Part shown: positions 1-51,295 of the stretch, in pieces
How the letters are laid out: every line of letters begins with the position of its first letter
Numbering within the stretch: the first letter of the stretch is position 1
Origin: Chaetoderma sp. LZ-2023a
Lineage: Eukaryota; Mollusca; Caudofoveata; Chaetodermatida; Chaetodermatidae
Direction: 5' to 3'
Assembly: GCA_034401795.1 (NCBI GenBank)
Contig: CM067374.1
Location: 133,942,300 to 134,006,299, forward strand
DNA length: 64,000 bases
Made by a program: the position numbers and the translations under genes
The notes under the pieces: generated by a model
Database searches by the model: none
The model's input: the letters and a program-made list of their open reading frames with translations, nothing else
Told to the model about the DNA's origin: nothing

Positions 1-1880
1 TTGGAATCCGGATTGCTGGTGGGAATGTGTATGCATACATTCCCTCCCAACTGATAGCTAAGGCATTTGTTGCATAAGCGCTTGGATCTGGAATTGGAGA
101 GACGTACGTTGTCATCTTCGCATTCTTGTTCGTTGCAAACAAATCTATTTTGGGCTTCCCCCAGTGGTCGAACAGATGATCCGCCACACATTGATTTAGT
201 TGCCATTCCATAGGCAAAACACTCATCCTTCGGCTCAATGAGTCTGCTAACAGATTTAGCCTTCCCGGAACGTGAACTCCCTTCAAGGTGATCATATGAT
301 CTAGACACCACTAAAGCAGTTTCCAAGTCATCATACAGAGACTGGGCGACTTCATTCCGCCCTGGCGGTTTATGCAAGTCACTACTGTTGAGTTGTCTGA
401 TCGAACTAGAACACTCTTGTCCTGAACTTTCTTTAAGAAATGTTCCAGGCCCAGAACTACTGCTCGTAATTCCAGTAGATTTATATGTTCCAGTGAGTGA
501 TCCAGATCCCAAAGCCCAGATACTGTGACTTCTTCCAGGCAAGCCCCCCCCCCCCAATCCCTCCATTGATGCATCTGTGTACATCATTAATTGAGGGTGG
601 GGTGGGGTGAGCATCACACCTGCCAGGAGATTCTCTCTTCGTCCACCATTGAAGTTGGTGAATAAGAGGTTCCAACACTGACACCTCTGAGTCCAGGGAA
701 CCTATCCTCTGGGGCCACTGTGCCATGAGAAATAACTGGATAGGCCACCTGCGCAAGGCTGCCTGTGGAATAACTGGTTCCAGAGAAACCATCAACCCCA
801 GCATTCTCAAGTAAACCCGTGTCAGTACATGATGACTGTTGCACACTGACTGTATTACCGAGATGAGTATTTCTACTCTCTCCTGAGTAGGATAAACATA
901 CCCTATCGCTAGATCGAAGAACATTCCCAGGGAAACAAACTTCTGGGATGGAGTCAGCTCTGATTTCTGAAAGTTTATTATTCAGCCTCAGTCTGTGAGT
1001 TTTCAAAGAGGAGCCTGCGAGACTTTCCTGATTGTGTGCTTTTAACAGCCAATAGTCTATCTAAGTGTGGACTGCTATGCTTCTCCTGCGGAAGTATGCC
1101 GTTATTGCAAGAACCACCCTGGTGAAGACCCGAGGAGCCATGCAAATTCTGAATGGTAAAACTTTGAATTCCCACTGTCGGCCCTGGAACGCGAATCTCA
1201 GGTACTGACGAAAACTCTTCGCAATTGGATTGTGGAAATAAGCATCCTTCAGTTCTAATGATGCTGTCCACATTCCCTTCTCCATCCCTGCCAACACCGT
1301 TTTGACTGTTTCCATCTTGAAACTTGGTGTGTCTATGAACTTGTTCAATGGCTTGAGGTTGAGAATTGGTCTCCACCATCCAGTGCTCTTTGTCACTAGA
1401 AACACGGTTGAACAAAAGCCTGGGAAATTTTGTTCCAGTTGAATTGCTCCTTTTTGTATAAGGGAATTTGTCTCTTCCTCTATACACAACCGTTGATCTG
1501 GATCTCTTGGAATTTGAGTCCAGATCGGAACCAGAGACAGGTGTGATGGTGGGCCTATTGCCCAGTCGGGCCGGTACCCAGCTGAAAGCCATCGCAAGAC
1601 TAAGCAACCACTCCCACCCCTGCTTGTGGAAGGTCAATCGATCTCCCACGGGTCCACCTAGGGAGAGAGATGGACATAAGCAGTGCAAGAGCGGGACTGT
1701 CTCTGGTTCCAGCATTGGTTTGGTTCTTGTGGAAATCAGCCCATCAGGCACGATTACCACGACCAGATCCTCACGCGCCATGGCTTGCGCTGCCCGCACC
1801 ACGCGCGCCACGGCCCGCTCCTCGGTGTGTGGCCGGCTGCCCGCACTAGAGGAGCCTGCGACACACACACCCCCCCCCTA
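1..1880 (-). pseudogene. Degenerate RT/RNase H region of DIRS copy 1 (truncated by window edge)
   Basis: This stretch matches the reverse transcriptase/RNase H frame of the intact copy at 34621-36807 almost collinearly. Position 1 corresponds to about 34988, so the tyrosine-recombinase end lies outside the window. Recognisable pieces on the minus strand are the RT stretch near 1061-1597 (with LELKDAYFHNPI, where the intact copy has IDLKDAYFHIPI) and an RNase H piece near 311-574 (SDNSTVVTCINRQGG). Several frameshifts and stops break the frame, and the C run at 545-554 breaks the RNase H part. It cannot encode a functional polyprotein. It runs in the same orientation as the anoctamin gene. Confidence 0.9.
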
Positions 1881-3620
1881 CTGCAGGCCATGCTGGCATG
1901 GCCGTGGCCTAGGCTGCGCCAGTGACTGGACTCTGCCCTGACCAGCGCCACCTCGGGCCTGCTGTGGATGGTATGCAGGGGGCGCAGTGCGAATGTACGC
2001 CCTACGAAGAACCTCAAATAGTTCACGTAGCACCCTTTGATTGTTGACTAGAGTGACTGTCTCCTGGAGGTGTCTAGATCCCCCACCCCAAAAGAGACCA
2101 GAACCTGACATAGGCATCCGCAACAGCCTGTTGTACAAATCCTGAGATGGACACAAATTATCTAGAGCAAATGTGCGTCTCGCCGTGACACTTCTAGTCA
2201 CTGCCCTAGTCATGCAGTCCAGAGCCAGATTAATACCATCCTAGATGGCTCTCTGAACTGAGACAGGGCTTGCTTGGCACGATGCAGAATCTGTTACTAC
2301 ACCCTGTAACAGCTGTGACACATGCCAGAGTGCCTCTATGGACGCTCTTGAGCTCTCCTCTGCATTGTGCAATGCAGTATTTGCTGAGCGCAGGGCACTC
2401 GAGCACAGCGCTCCCATGTCAGAACGGGAACCTGGCTGCGTGTTCTCGACAAGCGCTGCCCGATCATCAGCACTCGGCTTTGGCACTGTACCGTATGACT
2501 GGTACTGGCCAGCAATGATACGACACCGCCTCGCCACCTCGCGGGGGGGGGGGGCTTCGCAAGCCGTCCATTAGGCTTAATGGACGTCTCGGCCGCCGTG
2601 AACATATCAACTATATGTTCTGCTAATGGCAGAGATGACATAGCGGTAACTGCCGGCTTTCCAGCCAACCATGGGCGCTGGTCCCACTAGCTTGCCGACT
2701 GTTCTACAGAGCTCTAGCCTAACGCTTACCAGCCATTGGCACGCGTCAGACCAGTCCCCCTGTGACCACCTGTGAGTACTCAACAAGGCGCGGGCCTTCG
2801 TCATCCTCTACAGCACTCGCAGGTGTAAACGTGGCTGGAGCCGTGGATACTCCTGGCAGGACGTGGAAAACATGTGGGCCCGAGAGAGCAAGCATGTCTT
2901 GTGCCACGGCTGAAAAGCCAGGAGCCGGCGCCATGTAAGCATGCGGGGTGTAATCCACCACACCATGACCCGGACCAGCCGCCGTCATATCCTCGCTAAG
3001 CCGAGGTATATACGGAAACAGCGGTCATCTGCTCCAACCTGGCCCACCCTTTGAGCCGTGAAGGCTACCTCTGCGGGAGTAGTTCCACGAAAAAAATTGG
3101 CTGTGCTCCCCGCGAGTGGTGCACAATTGTCCGTTTCCATTTCCACGGCTTCAACGGGTGAACCCAGCAGAAAATCCTCTTCCTCCTGGCCATCATACAC
3201 TGCCTCAGGACCATGACGGACACCAGAATCAGTGGTGGGGATTTTCTGCTCAGGGGCAGATGAAGAAGACAATAAAGTACTCGGCCCAGGGAGCATGCTG
3301 CAAAGTAGCTCCTGTACCAAATCTTTTATTGTCTTTTTCATCTCCCCCATCATTTCCAACCTGAAAGACTCCATTTCCGAAAAAACAGAGGCCTTTCTCT
3401 TACCCTTGCCACTTACACTCTTCTTCGCACACTTCTCCTCCTCCAACACCTTATCCTTCGCCTGTAACGACTAGAATTCAGAGAATAAGTCACCCCACCA
3501 CCCCCCCCACTGTTTACAGCCATCACATTTTAATAATGGACCACTAGGTGAACATTTTACACACAAGTGAGGAGAAAACTTGGGCTTGATAGAGCGGTTA
3601 GAACCGGCACAAGGTGTCTG
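1880..3620 (-). pseudogene. Degenerate gag-like ORF of DIRS copy 1
   Basis: This is the counterpart of the gag-like ORF of the second copy. The start region near 3449 (MLEEEKCAKKS, then GEMKKTIKDLVQELL) aligns with EMKRTIKDLVPGLL of copy 2. The middle piece at 2241-2537 (ARRCRIIAGQYQSYGTVPKP) aligns with ARRCRIVPLDYQRYGVVPKP. The frame is broken into at least four overlapping pieces. Around 2375 this copy keeps a continuous frame (ANTALHNAEES) exactly where the younger copy has a one-base insertion. Confidence 0.85.
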
Positions 3621-3706
3621 AAAAAAGGGACAAGACGATGACAATGAGTTAAAGATTCCTTTATAATTAAATAAATTAAATAACTCATAAATGAGTTAAA
3701 GATTCC

Positions 3707-3948
3707 TTCTTCTTCTTTCTTCTTTTCGTTCGCTGATCATACTGCCAGTCCTGTAAGTGACTATCGACATGATCATATGCGCTAAGTGCGTGGATCCATG
3801 GTTTATTAAAGTGCACCGTGCGGCCTGGAACCTCCGTCTTCAGCACTCGAGGTTTCTGTCAGGGTTACCTCACCCTTACCTCCTTTAGTCGCCTCTTACG
3901 ACACGCAGAGGATACGGAAGGTGTATTCTAAGCCAAACCTACAGGGCA
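3707..3948 (-). mobile_element. SINE insertion with A/G-rich tail inside DIRS copy 1
   Basis: The insert is flanked by AAAGATTCC on both sides (3698-3706 and 3949-3957), a likely target-site duplication. Read on the minus strand it has a head containing CGTAAGAGGCGACTAAAGG and ends in a (GAA)n-like tail, which appears on the plus strand as TTCTTCTTCTTTC. The head motif is one I associate with SINEs common in molluscs and other invertebrates; that family assignment is from memory. A 41-bp AT-rich segment is also duplicated on both sides (3651-3691 and 3949-3989). Confidence 0.6.
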
Positions 3949-3989
3949 AAAGATTCCTTTATAATTAAATAAATTAAATAACTCATAAA

Positions 3990-4058
3990 GGAGAAAGAAT
4001 TCACCTATAGGCCTAAAGAGGACGGTGAGAAAGATGAACAACCAGCCTCACAGAGGAT

Positions 4059-7756: not shown

Positions 7757-7965
7757 CTGCAGTATGAGACATTGCCAAACTTCTCAATTTGAATGTCCCT
7801 CGGATAGGTTTGATTTTGAAAATCAGCCACACTAAAGTATGACAAGCTATGGTTGACATATCCCGACATATCAAACGTGCAGTCCGATCCCGTGTCATAG
7901 CATTTGTACAGATATAGGTATGTCAGCTTAGGTATAAAGTCTGATGTGAGGGCTATTATGAAGGC
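7757..7965 (-). CDS. Anoctamin, visible exon 13 (helix 8 continuation and extracellular loop)
   Basis: The 209-bp exon encodes 69 codons plus two bases. It opens with AFIIALTSDFIPKLTYLY, the family's signature after helix 8, and continues into an extracellular loop with three N-glycosylation sequons (NHS, NQT, NVS) and GYVNHSLSYFSVADFQN. The acceptor is TTTGTTTTCAG/GCC and the donor CTGCAG/GTTGGT. The region immediately 5' of the acceptor is a minisatellite derived from the acceptor and exon start (see 7983-8640). The loop sequence resembles ANO1/ANO2 here, while other exons look more like ANO3/ANO4, so I do not assign a subtype. Confidence 0.96.
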
Positions 7966-7982
7966 CTGAAAACAAACATGGA

Positions 7983-8640
7983 ATAAGAGCCTGTAGAAAA
8001 GGATAGAATAAGGTCTGGCATGGTGGCTATGCCTGTGAACAACGATAGAATAAGGTCTGGCATGGTGGCTATGCCTGTGAACAACGATAGAATAAGGTCT
8101 GATATGGTGGCTATGCCTGTGAACAACGATAGAATAAGGTCTGATATGGTGGCTATGGCGGTGAACAAGGACAGAATAAGGTCTGATATGGTGGCTATGG
8201 CGGTGAACAAGGACAGAATAAGGTCTGATATGGTGCCTATGCCTGTGAACAACGATAGAATACGGTCTGGCATGGTGGCTATGCCTGTGAACAACGATAG
8301 AATAAGGTCTGATATGGTGGCTATGGCGGTGAACAAGGACAGAATAAGGTCTGATATGGTGGCTATGGCGGTGAACAAGGACAGAATAAGGTCTGATATG
8401 GTGGCTATGGCTGTGAACAAGGACAGAATAATGTCTGATATGGTGGCTATGGCGGTGAACAAGGACAGAATAATGTCTGACATGATGGCTATGGCTGTGA
8501 ACAAGGACAGAATAAGGTCTGACATGGTGGCTATGGCGGTGAACAAGGACAGAATAATGTCTGACATGATGGCCATGCCTGTGAACAAGGACAGAATAAT
8601 GTCTGACATGATGGCTATGCCCGTGAACAAGGACAGAATG
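7983..8640 (-). repeat. 42-bp minisatellite derived from the exon 13 splice-acceptor boundary
   Basis: About 15 units of 42 bp (plus strand: GTCTGATATGGTGGCTATGG, then CGGTGAACAAGGACAGAATAAG). The adjacent exon boundary reads GTCTGATGTGAGGGCTATTA and then TGAAGGCCTGAAAACAAAC, so the unit is that boundary with about 6 bp removed. Because 42 is a multiple of three, three reading frames stay open throughout, which explains the long ORFs on both strands. I regard these as repeat artefacts rather than genes. Confidence 0.85.
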
Positions 8641-10682: not shown

Positions 10683-11360
10683 AGATGGCTCCATTTCTAG
10701 CTATACCCACCCATTTCTAGTTATATCCCACTCATTTCTAGTTATACCCCACCCATTTCTAGTTATACCCCACCCATTTCTAGCTATACCCCACCCACCT
10801 CTAGCTATACCCCACCCATTTCTAGTTATACCCCACCCATTTCTAGTTATACCCAACCCATTTCTAGCTATACCCCACCCACTTCTAGCTATACCCCACC
10901 CATTTCTAGCTATACCCCACCCATTTCTAGCTATACCCCACCCATTTCTAGCTATACCCACCCATTTCTAGTTATAGCCCACCCACTCCTAGCTATACCC
11001 CAGCCATTTCTAGTTATACTCCGCCCATTTCTAGCTATACCCAAGCCATTTCTAGTTAAGCTCCGCCCACTTTTTACACTTGTTAGAGTTGATTTGAAAC
11101 CTGAAATACTAGAAACTAAATTTCAAGGTAACTAACAGGTAAGCTGTTAAATTATTTTAAAACTAATTTGACTGGGGGCTGTTGCGGAATGTTTATTAAA
11201 CTGGAAATTCATCAAAATTATACAATCCATGCATTGTCGAGACAGACATTTCAATTTTCAAACAGAGCCACATCATTGATTGTGATGTCAGCTAACAAGT
11301 GGCGTAACTGATTATGACGTTAAACACATGAGTGACAGATCACATCCTTCCATTAAATTG
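10683..11360. mobile_element. Family-C MITE with expanded internal minisatellite
   Basis: The first part (10690-11070) is a tandem array of about 18 units of roughly 21 bp (CCCACCCATTTCTAGCTATA). It is followed by family-C body sequence: GGTAAGCTGTTAAATTATTT, GTTTATTAAAC and GATTGTGATGTCAGCTAAC. Other family-C copies carry only one or two of the CTAGCTATGCCCC units. Confidence 0.75.
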
Positions 11361-11387: not shown

Positions 11388-11440
11388 ATTTGTGACAATT
11401 GCAATTGCTGATATTCCTCGCAAAATGCCGAACCAAGCAC
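11388..11440 (-). CDS. Anoctamin, visible exon 12
   Basis: A 53-bp exon encoding the Gly codon shared with exon 11 and then AWFGILRGISAIAIVTN, the start of the eighth membrane helix region. Acceptor AATTTTAG/GTGC and donor ACAAAT/GTAAGT. Phases fit exons 11 and 13 exactly. Confidence 0.95.
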
Positions 11441-11746
11441 CTAAAATTATTATTATTATTATTATTAGTCTTTATTATTATTTTTTTAATATTAGTATTA
11501 TTATTAATTTAACACAAATTATGATGGCAATAAATAATATTAATTTTATTAGAACAAGTATTCAGAATATTTAGAGTCTCGCCTATACTCCCACTCCCCC
11601 ACCCCCAGACCCACCCCTCCCTCACCCCACCCCCAAGTCATTCCAGTGGTAAATTTCCAAAATATTCCCTTGTTCCACAGATGAAAATTTACTATAAGAA
11701 AATTTAAATCTGAGCTATATCTGACCATTAATCATTAATTAGCTAT

Positions 11747-12091: not shown

Positions 12092-12244
12092 CAATATCTT
12101 GACTCCTCGTAGCAAGCGGTCGTCTCCACTGAGTTGTAAATTTATACGCGTCCAATCGGATTTCAATGATATTATTGATGAGGGCAAATAGCGGTGCCAA
12201 AGGAAATGCTGCCACGAAGATCGTTACAAAGCCAAATTGGATAA
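12092..12244 (-). CDS. Anoctamin, visible exon 11 (helices 7-8, calcium ligands E and D)
   Basis: The 153-bp exon encodes [20 protein letters not shown] followed by [20 protein letters not shown] and [11 protein letters not shown](G). [10 protein letters not shown] is the most conserved block of the TMEM16 family; its E-x3-D pair contributes two calcium ligands. QWRRPLA-R--DIG resembles the ANO3/ANO4 branch. Acceptor GATTTTCAG/TTAT and donor GATATTG/GTAATC. Phase 1 at both ends matches the neighbours. Confidence 0.97.
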
Positions 12245-15411: not shown

Positions 15412-15545
15412 CCATTTCCAGGTACTCATCGAAGAGTCCAAATGCAGGTGCGGGGGCTAACACATTGTCCTTCTCCCATTGGTGAAGGCTGGACTTCTCA
15501 CCATCTTGATTAATTCGTCGAGATTTATACCACACAACAAGCTTC
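15412..15545 (-). CDS. Anoctamin, visible exon 10 (helix 6-7 linker, calcium ligands EYLE)
   Basis: The 134-bp exon encodes KLVVWYKSRRINQDGEKSSL, then HQWEKDNVLAPAPAFGLFDE and YLEM(V). GLFDEYLEM is a TMEM16 signature; the E-x2-E of EYLE supplies two calcium ligands. The first base completes the Pro codon from exon 9. Acceptor GTGTTTTAG/GAAG and donor ATGG/GTAAAA. This is the exon-proximal of 27 identical acceptors; the array at 15546-16820 consists of further copies of this boundary. Which acceptor is used in vivo cannot be read from DNA. Confidence 0.95.
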
Positions 15546-16820
15546 CTAAAACACGACAATAGTATCAGGGATTTATACCACACAACAAGCTTCCTAAAAC
15601 ACGACAATAGTATCAGGGATTTATACCACACAACAAGCTTCCTAAAACACGACAATAGTATCAGGGATTTATACCACACAACAAGCTTCCTAAAACACGA
15701 CAATAGTATCAGGGATTTATACCACACAACAAGCTTCCTAAAACACGACAATAGTATCAGAGATTTATACCACACAAAAAGCTTCCTAAAACACGACAAT
15801 AGTATCAGGGATTTATACCACACAACAAGCTTCCTAAAACACGACAATAGTATCAGGGATTTATACCACACAACAAGCTTCCTAAAACACGACAATAGTA
15901 TCAGGGATTTATACCACACAACAAGCTTCCTAAAACACGACAATAGTATCAGGGATTTATACCACACAACAAGCTTCCTAAAACACGACAATAGTATCAG
16001 GGATTTATACCACACAACAAGCTTCCTAAAACACGACAATAGTATCAGGGATTTATACCACACAACAAGCTTCCTAAAACACGACAATAGTATCAGAGAT
16101 TTATACCACACAACAAGCTTCCTAAAACACGACAATAGTATCAGAGATTTATACCACACAACAAGCTTCCTAAAACACGACAATAGTATCAGAGATTTAT
16201 ACCACACAACAAGCTTCCTAAAACACGACAATAGTATCAGAGATTTATACCACACAACAAGCTTCCTAAAACACGACAATAGTATCAGGGATTTATACCA
16301 CACAACAAGCTTCCTAAAACACGACAATAGTATCAGGGATTTATACCACACAACAAGCTTCCTAAAACACGACAATAGTATCAGAGATTTATACCACACA
16401 ACAAGCTTCCTAAAACACGACAATAGTATCAGAGATTTATACCACACAACAAGCTTCCTAAAACACGACAATAGCATCAGGGATTTATACCACACAACAA
16501 GCTTCCTAAAACACGACAATAGTATCAGGGATTTATACCACACAACAAGCTTCCTAAAACACGACAATAGTATCAGGGATTTATACCACACAACAAGCTT
16601 CCTAAAACACGACAATAGTATCAGGGATTTATACCACACAACAAGCTTCCTAAAACATGACAATAGTATCAGGGATTTATACCACACAACAAGCTTCCTA
16701 AAACATGACAATAGTATCAGGGATTTATACCACACAACAAGCTTCCTAAAACACGACAATAGTATCAGGGATTTATACCACACAACAAGCTTCCTAAAAC
16801 ACAACAATAGTATCAGGGAT
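15546..16820 (-). repeat. 48-bp minisatellite made of repeated exon 10 splice acceptors
   Basis: About 26 nearly identical 48-bp units in perfect register, plus a partial end unit. On the minus strand each unit reads CTGATACTATTGTCGTG, TTTTAG, GAAGCTTGTTGTGTGG, TATAAATC. It therefore carries a branch-like CTGAT, a T-rich tract, an AG acceptor and the first 25 or so bases of exon 10. The phase is kept (48 = 16 codons) and no unit has a stop, so a 16-residue repeat (KLVVWYKSLILLSCFR) is open throughout. Variation is limited to a few positions (GGG/GAG before ATTTATA, one TAGCATC, two ACATGAC, one V-to-F change), which implies recent amplification. Confidence 0.97.
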
Positions 16821-17311
16821 TTTCATAAGGGTCCTTTTGAGGGTATATAGCTGATTTGGACCCCCAAAAGTAGTGGCAGTAGGTCCCATGGGACCCCTGG
16901 AAATATTTTATGATTGTTAAATCCTAAGTAGTTGTATAGGTTTTTGCACAAGAATACCTACCAAATCTAGGATAGAATCAATATAATTCAGTCGTGAGCC
17001 CATTGCTACCCTCTAACTTATCTTAGCATTGAAGAGAAATACTGCTTGGGAACACAATGTTTCAATTTGGTACCCCCAGATTTCAGCTTGAGACCCCCAG
17101 ATTTAAGAGTGTGGGGTCCTTGGGACCTCCAAAATGTAGGTGCCATGGGAGACAGTGAATATTATATCTCAAACAACAAACATGTACTCATTAAGGTTAA
17201 GTTAGGTTAATGGACATGTTTGCCTGTGTACATGTGTATGTCCATTTTCAGGCAATGAGAAGATATTTTTTGAAAATGTATCACTTGAATGGCTGACTCT
17301 GTTATCAACCC
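16821..17311. other. Intron sequence with GGGACC-rich repeats
   Basis: No gene is seen. Several imperfect copies of CCCATGGGACCCC / GGGTCCTTGGGACC lie between 16860 and 17150. Confidence 0.4.
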
Positions 17312-19559: not shown

Positions 19560-19657
19560 GGCAGGATAAGCTCCTTGAAGTTGTTAAATGTTTGTTTACC
19601 GATCATGACAATAGCCAGCTGTATGCAGAGTTCAATCAGACAGCCAGCCGGATCACA
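19560..19657 (-). CDS. Anoctamin, visible exon 9 (helix 6, calcium ligands N and E)
   Basis: The 98-bp exon encodes [20 protein letters not shown] then [12 protein letters not shown](P). [14 protein letters not shown] sequence and GKQ-x3-NN-x2-E are family hallmarks; the N-x3-E pair supplies calcium ligands in helix 6. Acceptor CATTTACAG/TGTG and donor CTGCC/GTAAGT. The split Pro codon is completed by the G that follows any of the exon 10 acceptors. Confidence 0.96.
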
Positions 19658-20494: not shown

Positions 20495-21055
20495 ATTCCA
20501 GTTTATCCATCAATCATATGACATCATATTCAACTATGTGATGTGTACAATGATGTCATAATCAATGACATCATGAATGACGTAGCTAAGTTCATCACGA
20601 ATGCTTAATTGATGACGGACTAAGTGCTGTTGTACGAATTTTATTACTTTAACATTTAATATTTTTACTATTTAATAAACAAGTTGAATATTTTGAAACT
20701 AATTAGATTGTGAGATGGCAGCAACAGCACCCAGTCAAATTAGTTTCAAAATATTCAGCAGCTTACCTGTATACTTTGCTGGAAATCGCTAGTTAAGGAG
20801 TTCAGGGATCGATCGAATAGCTAGAAATGGGAAGGAATAGCTAGAAATGGGAAGGAATAGCTAGAAATGGGAAGGAATAGCTAGAAATGGGCGGGTATTG
20901 CTAGAAATGGCTGGGTATAGATAGAAATGGACAGGCATAGCTAGAAATGGGTGGGTATTGCTAGAAATGGCGGGGTATAGTTAGAAATGGGCGGGTATAG
21001 ATAGAAATGGATGGGTATAGCTAGAAATGGGTGGGTATAGATAGAAATTAATCCC
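20495..21055. mobile_element. Family-C MITE with expanded internal minisatellite
   Basis: Left end TTCCAGTTTATCCATC, then ATGACATCATATTCAAC and a family-A-like hairpin near 20682-20762. This is followed by about 11 units of 20 bp (GGAATAGCTAGAAATGGGAA and GGGTATAG variants) at 20815-21050. The array is an expansion of the segment present once in ordinary copies. Confidence 0.8.
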
Positions 21056-21380: not shown

Positions 21381-21438
21381 CTCCTCCTGTCGTGAGCCAG
21401 TCAGTGAATAATCATAATGTCCTGGATTTCCTCCGAAC
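21381..21438 (-). CDS. Anoctamin, visible exon 8
   Basis: A 58-bp exon. Its first base completes Arg; the rest reads FGGNPGHYDYSLTGSRQEE, the family's short loop after the FFxGRF motif. Acceptor ATTATTACAG/GTTC and donor GAGGAG/GTACGG. Confidence 0.93.
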
Positions 21439-21604: not shown

Positions 21605-22150
21605 TCTGATGTAGCAATCAAGTAGATGACATCATAATCAATTACATCACATGTTAACCGACATCACAATCATAATGCATAATGAGGCTTGCAGCACTGG
21701 TGTGGTCGAAGCGGTTGGCAGCTATGATGGTTGGTTGGCGCTTTGGCCGGTTGTGTGCTAAGTTCCTCGTTAATGCCATTATACCATACTGACATGACTA
21801 CTTGTATAAATAATACATAATGAATGACGTATCTAGCTCTGTCATGAACATTCATAAGTCCGTCAAGTGTACGAATTCTGTCTTTGATGGGTTTACTATT
21901 TAATAAACATCCTATGACAGCAACAGTGCTGTCAAATTACTTTTAAAATATTCAACAGCTAACTTGTATATCAAAATATTCAACAGCTAACTTGTATAGT
22001 AACTTGTATAGTAACTTGTATAGTAAACCTTGAAACTGGGATTCTGGTAATTCAGGGTCCAAAGTATATAAATCGCTCCTAACATGCATCCGAAGTGGGC
22101 GGAGATTAGCTAGAAATGGGCGGGGCATAGCTAGAAATGTATCCCTATAT
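21605..22150. mobile_element. Family-C-like MITE (subtype C')
   Basis: Contains GATGACATCATAATCAATTA, CATCACATGTTAACCGACATC, a degraded right arm (AAAATATTCAACAGCTAACT) that is partly duplicated, and two AGCTAGAAATG(GGCGGGG) units. It ends about 8 bp from the exon 7 donor. Confidence 0.65.
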
Positions 22151-22157
22151 GACTGAC

Positions 22158-22269
22158 CTGCCCTTGAAGAAGGCGATGTAGAAGATAGTTGAGTAGTAGT
22201 TGACAAACTGAAACATGAACATCTTCAGTGTAAAACTGTCCTCCCATTCTGTATCAGTGCGAGGCTTCT
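22158..22269 (-). CDS. Anoctamin, visible exon 7 (helix 5)
   Basis: The 112-bp exon encodes (E)[17 protein letters not shown], then [19 protein letters not shown](R). The block TEWE-SFTLKMF-FQFVN is closest to ANO3/ANO4 as I recall that branch. Acceptor TTTATTTCAG/AGAA, donor GGCAG/GTCAGT. Confidence 0.97.
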
Positions 22270-22375
22270 CTGAAATAAACAACGTCCGTAATGAAATAGA
22301 AATATCAGTTCATAGACCTCGCCAGTTATTCCAATCTAAATTTTCAAATGTAGTCTTGTCTTCGACTATATATGT

Positions 22376-23385
22376 TCCGGTCATCATTAACTATATACGT
22401 CATGGTCATCATTAACTATATAGGTCACGGTCATCAGTAACGATATAGGTTATGGTCATCATTAACTATATATGTCATGGTCATCATTAACTATATAGGC
22501 CATGGTCATCATTAACTATATAGGTTACGGTCATCATTAACTATATATGTCATGGTCATCATTAACTATATAGGTCATGGTTATCATTAACAATATAGGT
22601 TACGGTCATCATTAACTATATACGGCATGGTCATCATTAACTATATAGGTCATGGTTATCATTAATAATATAGGTTACGGTCATCATTAACTATATACGG
22701 CATGGTCATCATTAACTATATAGGTCATGGTCATCATTAACAATATATGTCATGGTCATCATTAACTATATAGGTCATGGTTATCATTAATAATATAGGT
22801 TACGGTCATCATTAACTATATACGGCATGGTCATCATTAACTATATAGGTCATGGTTATCATTAATAATATAGGTTACGGTCATCATTAACTATATAGGT
22901 CATGGTCATCATTAACAATATATGTCATGGTCATCATTAACTATATAGGTGACGTTCATCATTAATGATATAGGTTACGGTCATCATTAACGATATACGT
23001 CATGGTCATCTTTAACTATATAGGTCACGTTGATCATTAACGATATAGGTTATGGTCATCATTAACTATATACGTCATGGTCATCAAAAACTATATAGGT
23101 CATGGTCATCATTAACAATATAGGTCACGGTCATCATTAACTATATAGGTCACAGTCAGCACTAACTACATAGGGCGTGGTCATCACTAACTATATAGGT
23201 CATGGTCATCACTGACTATATAGGTCATAGTCATCACTGACTATATAGATCATGGTCATCACTGACTACATAGGTCATGGTCGTCACTGACTATATAGGT
23301 CATGGTCATCACTGACTATATAGGTCATGGTCATCACTGACTATATAGGTCATGCTCAACACTAACTATATATAGGTCATGCTCA
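22376..23385. repeat. 25-bp minisatellite upstream of exon 7
   Basis: About 40 units of 25 bp (GGTCATGGTCATCATTAAC + TATATA), with the 5' part in CATTAAC form and the later units shifting to CACTGAC. The unit shows an internal GGTCAT duplication. Unlike the arrays at exons 10 and 13 it is not similar to the neighbouring exon boundary. Confidence 0.9.
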
Positions 23386-24065
23386 TCACTAAGTGCATTG
23401 TCAGGACAAGAGTGCAAAGGCATGAGTCAGCATTTCCCTTGAGTGCATTCTACTTATTATTAGTGTCAACTGTTTATTTATTTATTTGTCTGTTTTATCC
23501 ATGCAATATCTGCAGAGTCCAAGAAGGTAGAATCAGCAAATTTGGCGTATCTATTCATATTGTAGATTGCTAGGCAACAAATAAGTTTGATGTCAAACAG
23601 TCAAATATCTTAAGTCACACGGTCACGAAGTACATCCTGACATATACATGTTTAGCCATAACTCAGAACTGCAAGTAGGTAATCAGCAAATTTGGCACAT
23701 ACATTCATATTATAGGTGGCTAGAAGTTCTTTGAGTTTCCGGACAAAGCATCAAATACATAGGCTATAGGGTCATGAAGTGCATATCAAAATACACATTT
23801 GTGGCCATACAGTAGTAGTGTTGTTCCAATTAATCGATTTGATCGATGATTGATTGCATATCCAATCAACACATCGATCATGATTTCACTAATCGGTTTT
23901 GACTGTTTATAAATTTACGATATTAAAACTGCTGAAAATGATTTTTTTTTTGTGGCAAAACCATTTTAATTTCATTTGTACAACTATATAACATAGTATT
24001 ACTCCATACGAGTCCATATTCTAAGACATTAACCTTCACAACACTGAAACAGTATGCTAATGTCA
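23386..24065. other. Intron sequence with a twofold diverged repeat
   Basis: The phrase AATCAGCAAATTTGGC recurs at about 23530 and 23680, marking a decayed tandem duplication of about 150 bp. No gene is seen. Confidence 0.45.
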
Positions 24066-46756: not shown

Positions 46757-47165
46757 TGGAGGAATCCATTTCTAGCTATGCCCCACCCATTTCTAGCTAT
46801 GCCCCACCCATTTCTAGCTATGCCCCACCCATTTCTAGCTATGCCCCACCCATTTCTAGCTATGCCCCGCCCATTTCTAGCTACGCTCCACCCACTTTTT
46901 ACTCATGTTTATCAATTTGAAACATTGAAACCTGAATTCCTAGAAATTAAATTTTAAGGTAACTATACACGTAGGCTGTCGTATGCTTTGAAATTAATTT
47001 GAATGAACTGCTGTGCTTCCAGTCAAATTAGTTTCAAAATGTTCAACGGAATGTTTACTAAATTTCAAATCCATCAAAGACATAATTCATTCAATTGTCA
47101 ATTATTTCAATTTTCATGATGGATGACTGCGTGTGATGTCGGCTAACTAGTGACAGAATTTACCT
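46757..47165. mobile_element. Family-C MITE with expanded internal minisatellite
   Basis: GGAGGAATCCATTTCTAGC followed by six 21-bp units (TTTCTAGCTATGCCCCACCC), then AGGTAACTATACACGTAGGC, hairpin arms and GTTTACTAAATTTC. It is close in sequence to the copy at 10683-11360. Confidence 0.82.
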
Positions 47166-50801: not shown

Positions 50802-51295
50802 GAATCCAGTCTGTCACTCGGGTATCTGATGTCATAATCAAATACATCCGTCACATGTTCACTGACGTCACAATCAAAATAATGTAAGTCTGGTCACAAA
50901 GGTAAAAAATTTAAGTGAAATTGTATAATTTTGATGAATTTACAATTTAATAAACATTCTGTTGAATATTTTGAAACTAATTTGACTGGGAGATGTTGCT
51001 GCAATTGGCAGCAACAGCTCCCAATCAAATTAGTTTCAAAATATTCAAATAATTTGAACCTAATTTGATTTGGAGATGTTGCAACCAGGCAAATTAGTTT
51101 CAAAATATTCAACTGCTTACCTGTGTAGTTACCTCAAAATTTTCATTCTGGGAATTCAGGTTTCAAAGCTTTCAAATTAATTCCAATACAACGTGGCCAG
51201 AGCTGAAATAGAAATGGGTGGCGTATGGCTTGAAATGTGCAGGGGTTTAACTAGAAATGGGCAGGGCATAGCTAGAAATGGAACCCTGTGTTTTC
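50802..51295. mobile_element. Family-C' MITE with duplicated hairpin arm
   Basis: GGAGGAATCCAGTCTGTCAC, ACGTCACAATCAAAATAATG, a complete hairpin at 50958-51048, a second right-arm set to 51118, and AGCTAGAAATGG units at 51205-51285. Confidence 0.82.

Follow-up and report, generated by a model that had tools for sequence, protein, structure and literature searches.

Twenty-seven tandem copies of a 3′ splice-site boundary in an anoctamin gene of Chaetoderma sp.

Introduction

In amphioxus, the globin genes BflGb6 and BflGb9 and the Adh3 gene have minisatellite-like duplications of intron-exon boundaries, which are called "mirages" (PMC3087553). RT-PCR indicated that regular splicing is undisturbed by these mirages, and the BflGb6 mirage varies in copy number between haplotypes, with 6 and 3 copies (PMC3087553). 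Other minisatellites are known to provide splice sites. In the human IFI6 (6-16) gene, two downstream units of a minisatellite are extra splice donors, resulting in three mRNA species (PMC4526556, citing Turri et al. 1995). In genes of human segmental duplications, cryptic splice sites can be activated by minisatellites at exon-intron boundaries, which average 4 units of 30 bp (PMC2812944). Earthworm metallothionein genes have intronic minisatellites (PMC12783039).

Here, I describe an array, termed A1, in a 64,000-nucleotide stretch of contig CM067374.1 of Chaetoderma sp. LZ-2023a (this whole stretch is called the window below). Judged by its sequence, A1 is a large new example of the mirage kind that has already been described. 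As in the amphioxus mirages, an intron-exon boundary is duplicated in tandem, the splice signals are repeated, and the authentic section lies alongside. Unlike them, A1 has 27 copies (6 and 3 in BflGb6), all of its signals are intact, its unit is in frame and open, and it resides in a different gene and in a 2.44-Gb genome. A1 also resembles the IFI6 minisatellite in that both provide a single exon with additional splice sites through their units, but the IFI6 sites are donors instead of acceptors and two further units are really used. In 1995, Turri et al. reportedly placed the IFI6 (6-16) minisatellite in exon 2 and found a short unit. The internal tandem repeats of segmental duplications share with A1 the position at an exon-intron boundary, but they have about 4 units of 30 bp, and complete-acceptor arrays are not described in the accessible portion of that paper (PMC2812944). 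The first-pass annotation of the window knew of no described equivalent of this size. The kind itself has been described, as amphioxus mirages and IFI6 show, but no example reaching this number of intact acceptors was found in the accessible portions of the open-access literature.

Results and Discussion

The host gene

The exon numbers follow the first-pass annotation, which counted the visible exons of the gene in the window. When exons 9 to 13 of this minus-strand gene are joined, the translation matches the anoctamin family PF04547 of Pfam with an E value of 5e-59. The best structural alignments of these exons are with Anoctamin-1 and Anoctamin-6, and in these alignments the calcium ligands of TM6, TM7, and TM8 are present (ligand positions as given in PMC8640346). 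Exon 9 (19560-19657, minus strand, as are all exons and arrays of the gene below; 98 nt) carries the TM6 calcium ligands and ends with CC in phase 2 (CTGCC/GTAAGT). The canonical exon 10 (15412-15545, 134 nt) extends from the 27th acceptor of A1 to the donor GAAATGG/GTAAAA. Exon 11 (12092-12244) encodes the TM7/TM8 region and is followed by exon 12 (11388-11440, 53 nt) and exon 13 (7757-7965), whose authentic acceptor is TTTTCAG/GCC. Another anoctamin exon lies at 22158-22269, starting at 22269 and having an approximate end. Other exons of the gene start at 21438 and 5366, and one more exists at about 40.2 kb; no exon was identified in the window upstream of the latter.

Structure of the array A1

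Tandem Repeats Finder (TRF), run on the 64-kb window, reported a 48-bp unit in 27.1 copies at 15522-16822, with 98% matches and 0% indels. In a unit-by-unit reading, TTTTAG/GAAG recurs at an exact spacing of 48 bases in all 27 units, each of which consists of 24 intron bases and 24 exon bases and thus spans the boundary in the manner of a mirage. The CTGAT in the unit may provide a branch adenosine about 20 bases 5′ of the exon. The first-pass annotation had proposed 27 tandem, frame-preserving copies of an anoctamin 3′ splice site, and this was borne out by both analyses. CTGAT and TTTTAG/G are present in each unit as it had stated, while its "25 or so" exon bases are really 24.

The array is highly homogeneous. 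The consensus is matched exactly by 15 of the 27 units, and only six distinct unit types exist. Five of the 48 columns are variable; CTGAT, the AG, and the first exon base are all invariant. The unit types are ordered in a pattern, and unique sequence lies at both edges of the array. The pentanucleotide AAATC in the 5′ flank (16818-16822, minus strand) also ends the exon part of the unit. As a short direct repeat bordering the repeated segment on both sides, it is a likely seed of slippage. The unit had no second location in the 2.44-Gb assembly in a search that skips very common words and scores the best candidates only. In a 214-nt stretch of four units, no special RNA structure that might hide the sites was found (z = +1.04).

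Reading frame and the ancestral boundary

Every acceptor of A1 supplies the G that completes the proline codon begun by the CC of exon 9, as the first-pass annotation had read. Its statement that the unit is 16 codons without a stop is also correct. Splicing to the first acceptor would give an exon 10 of 1382 nt (16793-15412) that is stop-free to the donor. Intron 9 is 4014 nt long up to unit 27 and 2766 nt up to unit 1.

Which boundary is ancestral? A paralog (L049) lies on the same contig, at a distance of about 22 Mb. Its exon 9 ends with ATACC/GTAAGT and its exon 10 begins at ATCACAG/AAAAGTG; the intron interrupts the same proline codon in phase 2, there is one acceptor, and no array spans the boundary. 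Since the L049 intron shares the codon and the phase with unit 27, acceptor 27 marks the ancestral boundary, and the intron half of unit 27 (15546-15569, minus strand) corresponds to the ancestral 3′ splice site. The authentic boundary, that is, unit 27 joined to the rest of the exon, thus lies beside its duplicates as in a mirage. The earlier suggestion that choosing acceptor n would add n copies holds insofar as in-frame additions are possible. Because acceptor 27 is the canonical one, however, the maximum is 26 units (416 amino acid residues), not 27.

An open in-frame unit is not rare by chance. Among the unit sizes tried at seven acceptors with known phase (five of the window gene and two of the paralog), 18% gave such a unit, ranging from 0 to 33% by acceptor. 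Frame preservation was therefore rejected as a sign of selection. The array itself is obviously more than a product of chance, but its meeting a boundary is less remarkable: arrays with a period of at least 10 and a length of at least 100 make up 11% of the 192 kb sampled around 78 exons. With such coverage and such a chance of openness, neither the overlap with a boundary nor the open frame needs selection.

The possible insertion site

Counted in the structure alignments, the split proline corresponds to P654 in TMEM16A and P628 in TMEM16F. An insert would thus be placed in the gating helix TM6, at the kink proline of its cytosolic end. According to a review, the P654A mutation moves TMEM16A toward the closed state, and TMEM16F has a kink in TM6 at P628 that depends on PIP2 (PMC8640346). 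The first-pass annotation had placed the insert between the calcium-binding helices 6 and 7. The alignment supports this placement, but the position is the TM6 kink proline and no indifferent linker. The insert is hydrophobic, with a mean Kyte-Doolittle value of 1.08 versus -0.64 for exon 10. The repeat peptide matched no Pfam family (six units tried) and no solved structure.

Sister arrays in the same gene and in a myosin gene

A second array, A2 (7989-8639, minus strand), lies immediately upstream of exon 13. It consists of 15.5 copies of a 42-bp unit and is an older, diverged copy of the acceptor boundary of this exon. In the alignment of the unit with this boundary, 37 of 47 aligned bases are identical, with one 7-nt gap. 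A score as high was reached by none of 2000 base shuffles and by none of 1048 other stretches of the window; when the gap cost was made stricter and the target shortened, 3 of 1000 shuffles scored as high. The AG is kept at nine of the 16 positions and lost at seven. All nine sites that keep it run into a stop codon in the phase of exon 12, seven of them at the second codon. To score acceptors, I used a crude matrix built from nine acceptors (seven of the window gene and two of the paralog), two of which score below 0 when left out of training. With this matrix, the surviving A2 acceptors score 6.5 to 10.0, versus 3.8 for the authentic exon 13 acceptor left out of training. That sites leading to stops outscore the authentic one is an argument for position, rather than site strength, as the deciding factor.

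A third array was found on contig C6. A myosin exon (G000:C6:59853847-59853960; loci L070 and L094) has nine extra copies of its acceptor boundary upstream, at 433-709 (0-based) of the L070 reverse strand. The spacing of the copies is 26 bp for seven steps, followed by steps of 46 and 48 bp, and eight of the nine keep the AG. The exon upstream of the array ends in phase 0, and all nine copies lead to a stop after 4 to 21 codons. From the in-frame openness of A1, the first-pass annotation had offered a length-variable linker as one of two options; with a chance of about 0.18 and two unreadable sister arrays, the inference from openness to such a linker is not supported.

Are such arrays common? 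A first screen by alignment with the arrays masked, covering 38 loci and 25 array rows, gave no other boundary array. In a second masked screen, which covered 78 exons and 46 rows and used different gap costs, the L070 arrays reached ranks of only 42 and 55 among 500 shuffles, since masking had concealed the boundary; L070 was singled out for reading because its unit contains TATTTCAG. Three other candidates of this screen were dropped: L019 (0 of 500 shuffles) as a GT-rich simple repeat, L063 (2 of 500) since no splice-boundary copy was seen on reading, and L008 (14 of 500) with its sequence unread. An unmasked copy-count screen comprised 87 entries representing 85 distinct exons (65 of myosin, 14 of anoctamin outside the window, and six of the window gene); A2 is too diverged for this screen. 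The acceptor zone was positive at two exons, exon 10 of the window gene and the L070 exon, which corresponds to one of the 79 exons outside the window gene. No tandem donor array was found among the 85 exons. A donor-zone score at L081 stems from two scattered copies, which were judged to be chance when the locus was read, and an exon-interior score at L031 from a simple repeat. Of 22 anoctamin matches in the genome, 17 were examined. A preference of arrays for the acceptor side was rejected: within 200 bp, arrays lie upstream of 9 and downstream of 8 of the 78 exons.

Which acceptor is used?

All surviving upstream acceptors in A2 and in the myosin array lead to stops, which suggests that splicing probably uses the copy adjoining the exon. 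If the genes of the sister arrays are functional, as this argument presumes of both, their transcripts must skip nine (A2) and eight (myosin) upstream AGs in favour of the exon-adjacent acceptor. Extended to A1, this rule would yield a normal exon 10 from unit 27, in line with the RT-PCR results on amphioxus mirages (PMC3087553). Taking only sequence into account, I consider it quite likely that A1 is a recently expanded mirage and that the canonical splicing of exon 10 from unit 27 is dominant, perhaps beside a small tail of isoforms longer by multiples of 16 residues.

The history of the locus may have been as follows. A 48-bp segment between the AAATC direct repeats, one in the intron and the other formed by the last five of the first 24 exon bases, would have been tandemly duplicated, and 27 copies may then have been reached by slippage or unequal exchange. 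The spliceosome would define exon 10 mainly via the downstream donor and the unique exon sequence, which only unit 27 adjoins. An intron of 2766 to 4014 nt has sufficient length for the exon to be defined by its downstream donor. I propose that, with such a definition, chiefly unit 27 would be used and a normal anoctamin made, the remaining 26 copies being spliced out as intron. A minor choice of units 26, 25, and so on might add 16, 32, and more residues at the TM6 kink, and such low use would be tolerated in frame. The site sequence does not favour unit 27. With the crude matrix, 23 of the 27 units score 3.2, unit 8 scores 3.8, units 3 and 4 score 0.6, and the top score, 6.1, belongs to unit 1, which is encountered first; 11 of the 139 AGs of the upstream intron outscore the common unit.

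Other readings were weighed, and the probabilities assigned to them overlap and are not meant to add to one. The extra acceptors might be decoys that lower or regulate the output through slow splicing of intron 9 or mis-spliced RNA, making no functional long isoforms. I regard this as unlikely. Many self-contained acceptors do precede the true one in three places, and the loss of the AG at seven of the 16 A2 positions would be expected under selection against decoys, or under drift, but the in-frame units of A1 would trigger no stop-codon-mediated decay. A working device, in which a stochastic or regulated choice of acceptor generates anoctamins with 0 to 26 KLVVWYKSLILLSCFR inserts at the TM6 kink, seems very unlikely. 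None of the 27 sites is damaged and the in-frame unit is open, but chance would give such a unit in about 18% of cases, and stops would prevent the sister arrays from working in this way. The use of two IFI6 units as extra donors (PMC4526556) is a precedent, and the effects at P654 and P628 (PMC8640346) show that the site matters for gating; against this, the insert is hydrophobic and matches no Pfam family or solved structure. Equally improbable is a graded use of the 27 acceptors, those nearest the exon most often, by which the copy number of an individual would set a ladder of isoforms with 16-residue inserts at the TM6 gating kink.

A decaying pseudogene, at least in the case of this allele, whose splicing would be irrelevant is highly improbable; the failure to identify an exon upstream of about 40.2 kb would fit, but the exons read open, have AG/GT edges, and keep the calcium ligands of TM6 to TM8. 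Least probable of all is an assembly artefact, with the real A1 much shorter or absent. Although the copy number of a 1.3-kb array with 98% identity depends on read length, six unit types in an ordered pattern between unique edges argue against an artefact, as do the other minisatellites that are common in the assembly. Thus, a mirage with dominant use of unit 27 is preferred. The 27 near-identical, self-contained acceptors before one donor constitute a natural experiment: is the first acceptor met chosen, or the one nearest to the donor? The presence of three arrays in one genome, of which an anoctamin gene has two and a myosin gene has one, suggests that boundary minisatellites are not a curiosity of amphioxus. 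Minisatellites spanning boundaries may let introns slide, give rise to new introns, and produce isoforms that depend on copy number and would escape short-read annotation.

Minor observations in the window and the assembly

A 25-bp array of 41 copies (22365-23392) lies about 100 bp upstream of the exon starting at 22269, and no relation between its sequence and the neighbouring exon boundary was found. An (ATT)n tract (11446-11506) forms the region directly 5′ of the exon 12 acceptor. A dispersed minisatellite family with a unit of 20-21 bp (CCATTTCTAGCTATACCCCAC, its relatives, and the complement) occurs at 10691-11069, 20815-21048, 22092-22139, 46766-46894, and 51209-51281, and also outside the window at the loci L003, L006, L022, and L037. 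Positions 1-4000 of the window are GC-richer and have retroelement-like open frames on the minus strand. Elsewhere in the assembly, the 4.76-Mb contig C18 (loci L017 and L018) has two bacterial-type oxidase subunit I genes, with open frames of 690 and 708 amino acids, and looks like a bacterial genome of a symbiont or a contaminant.
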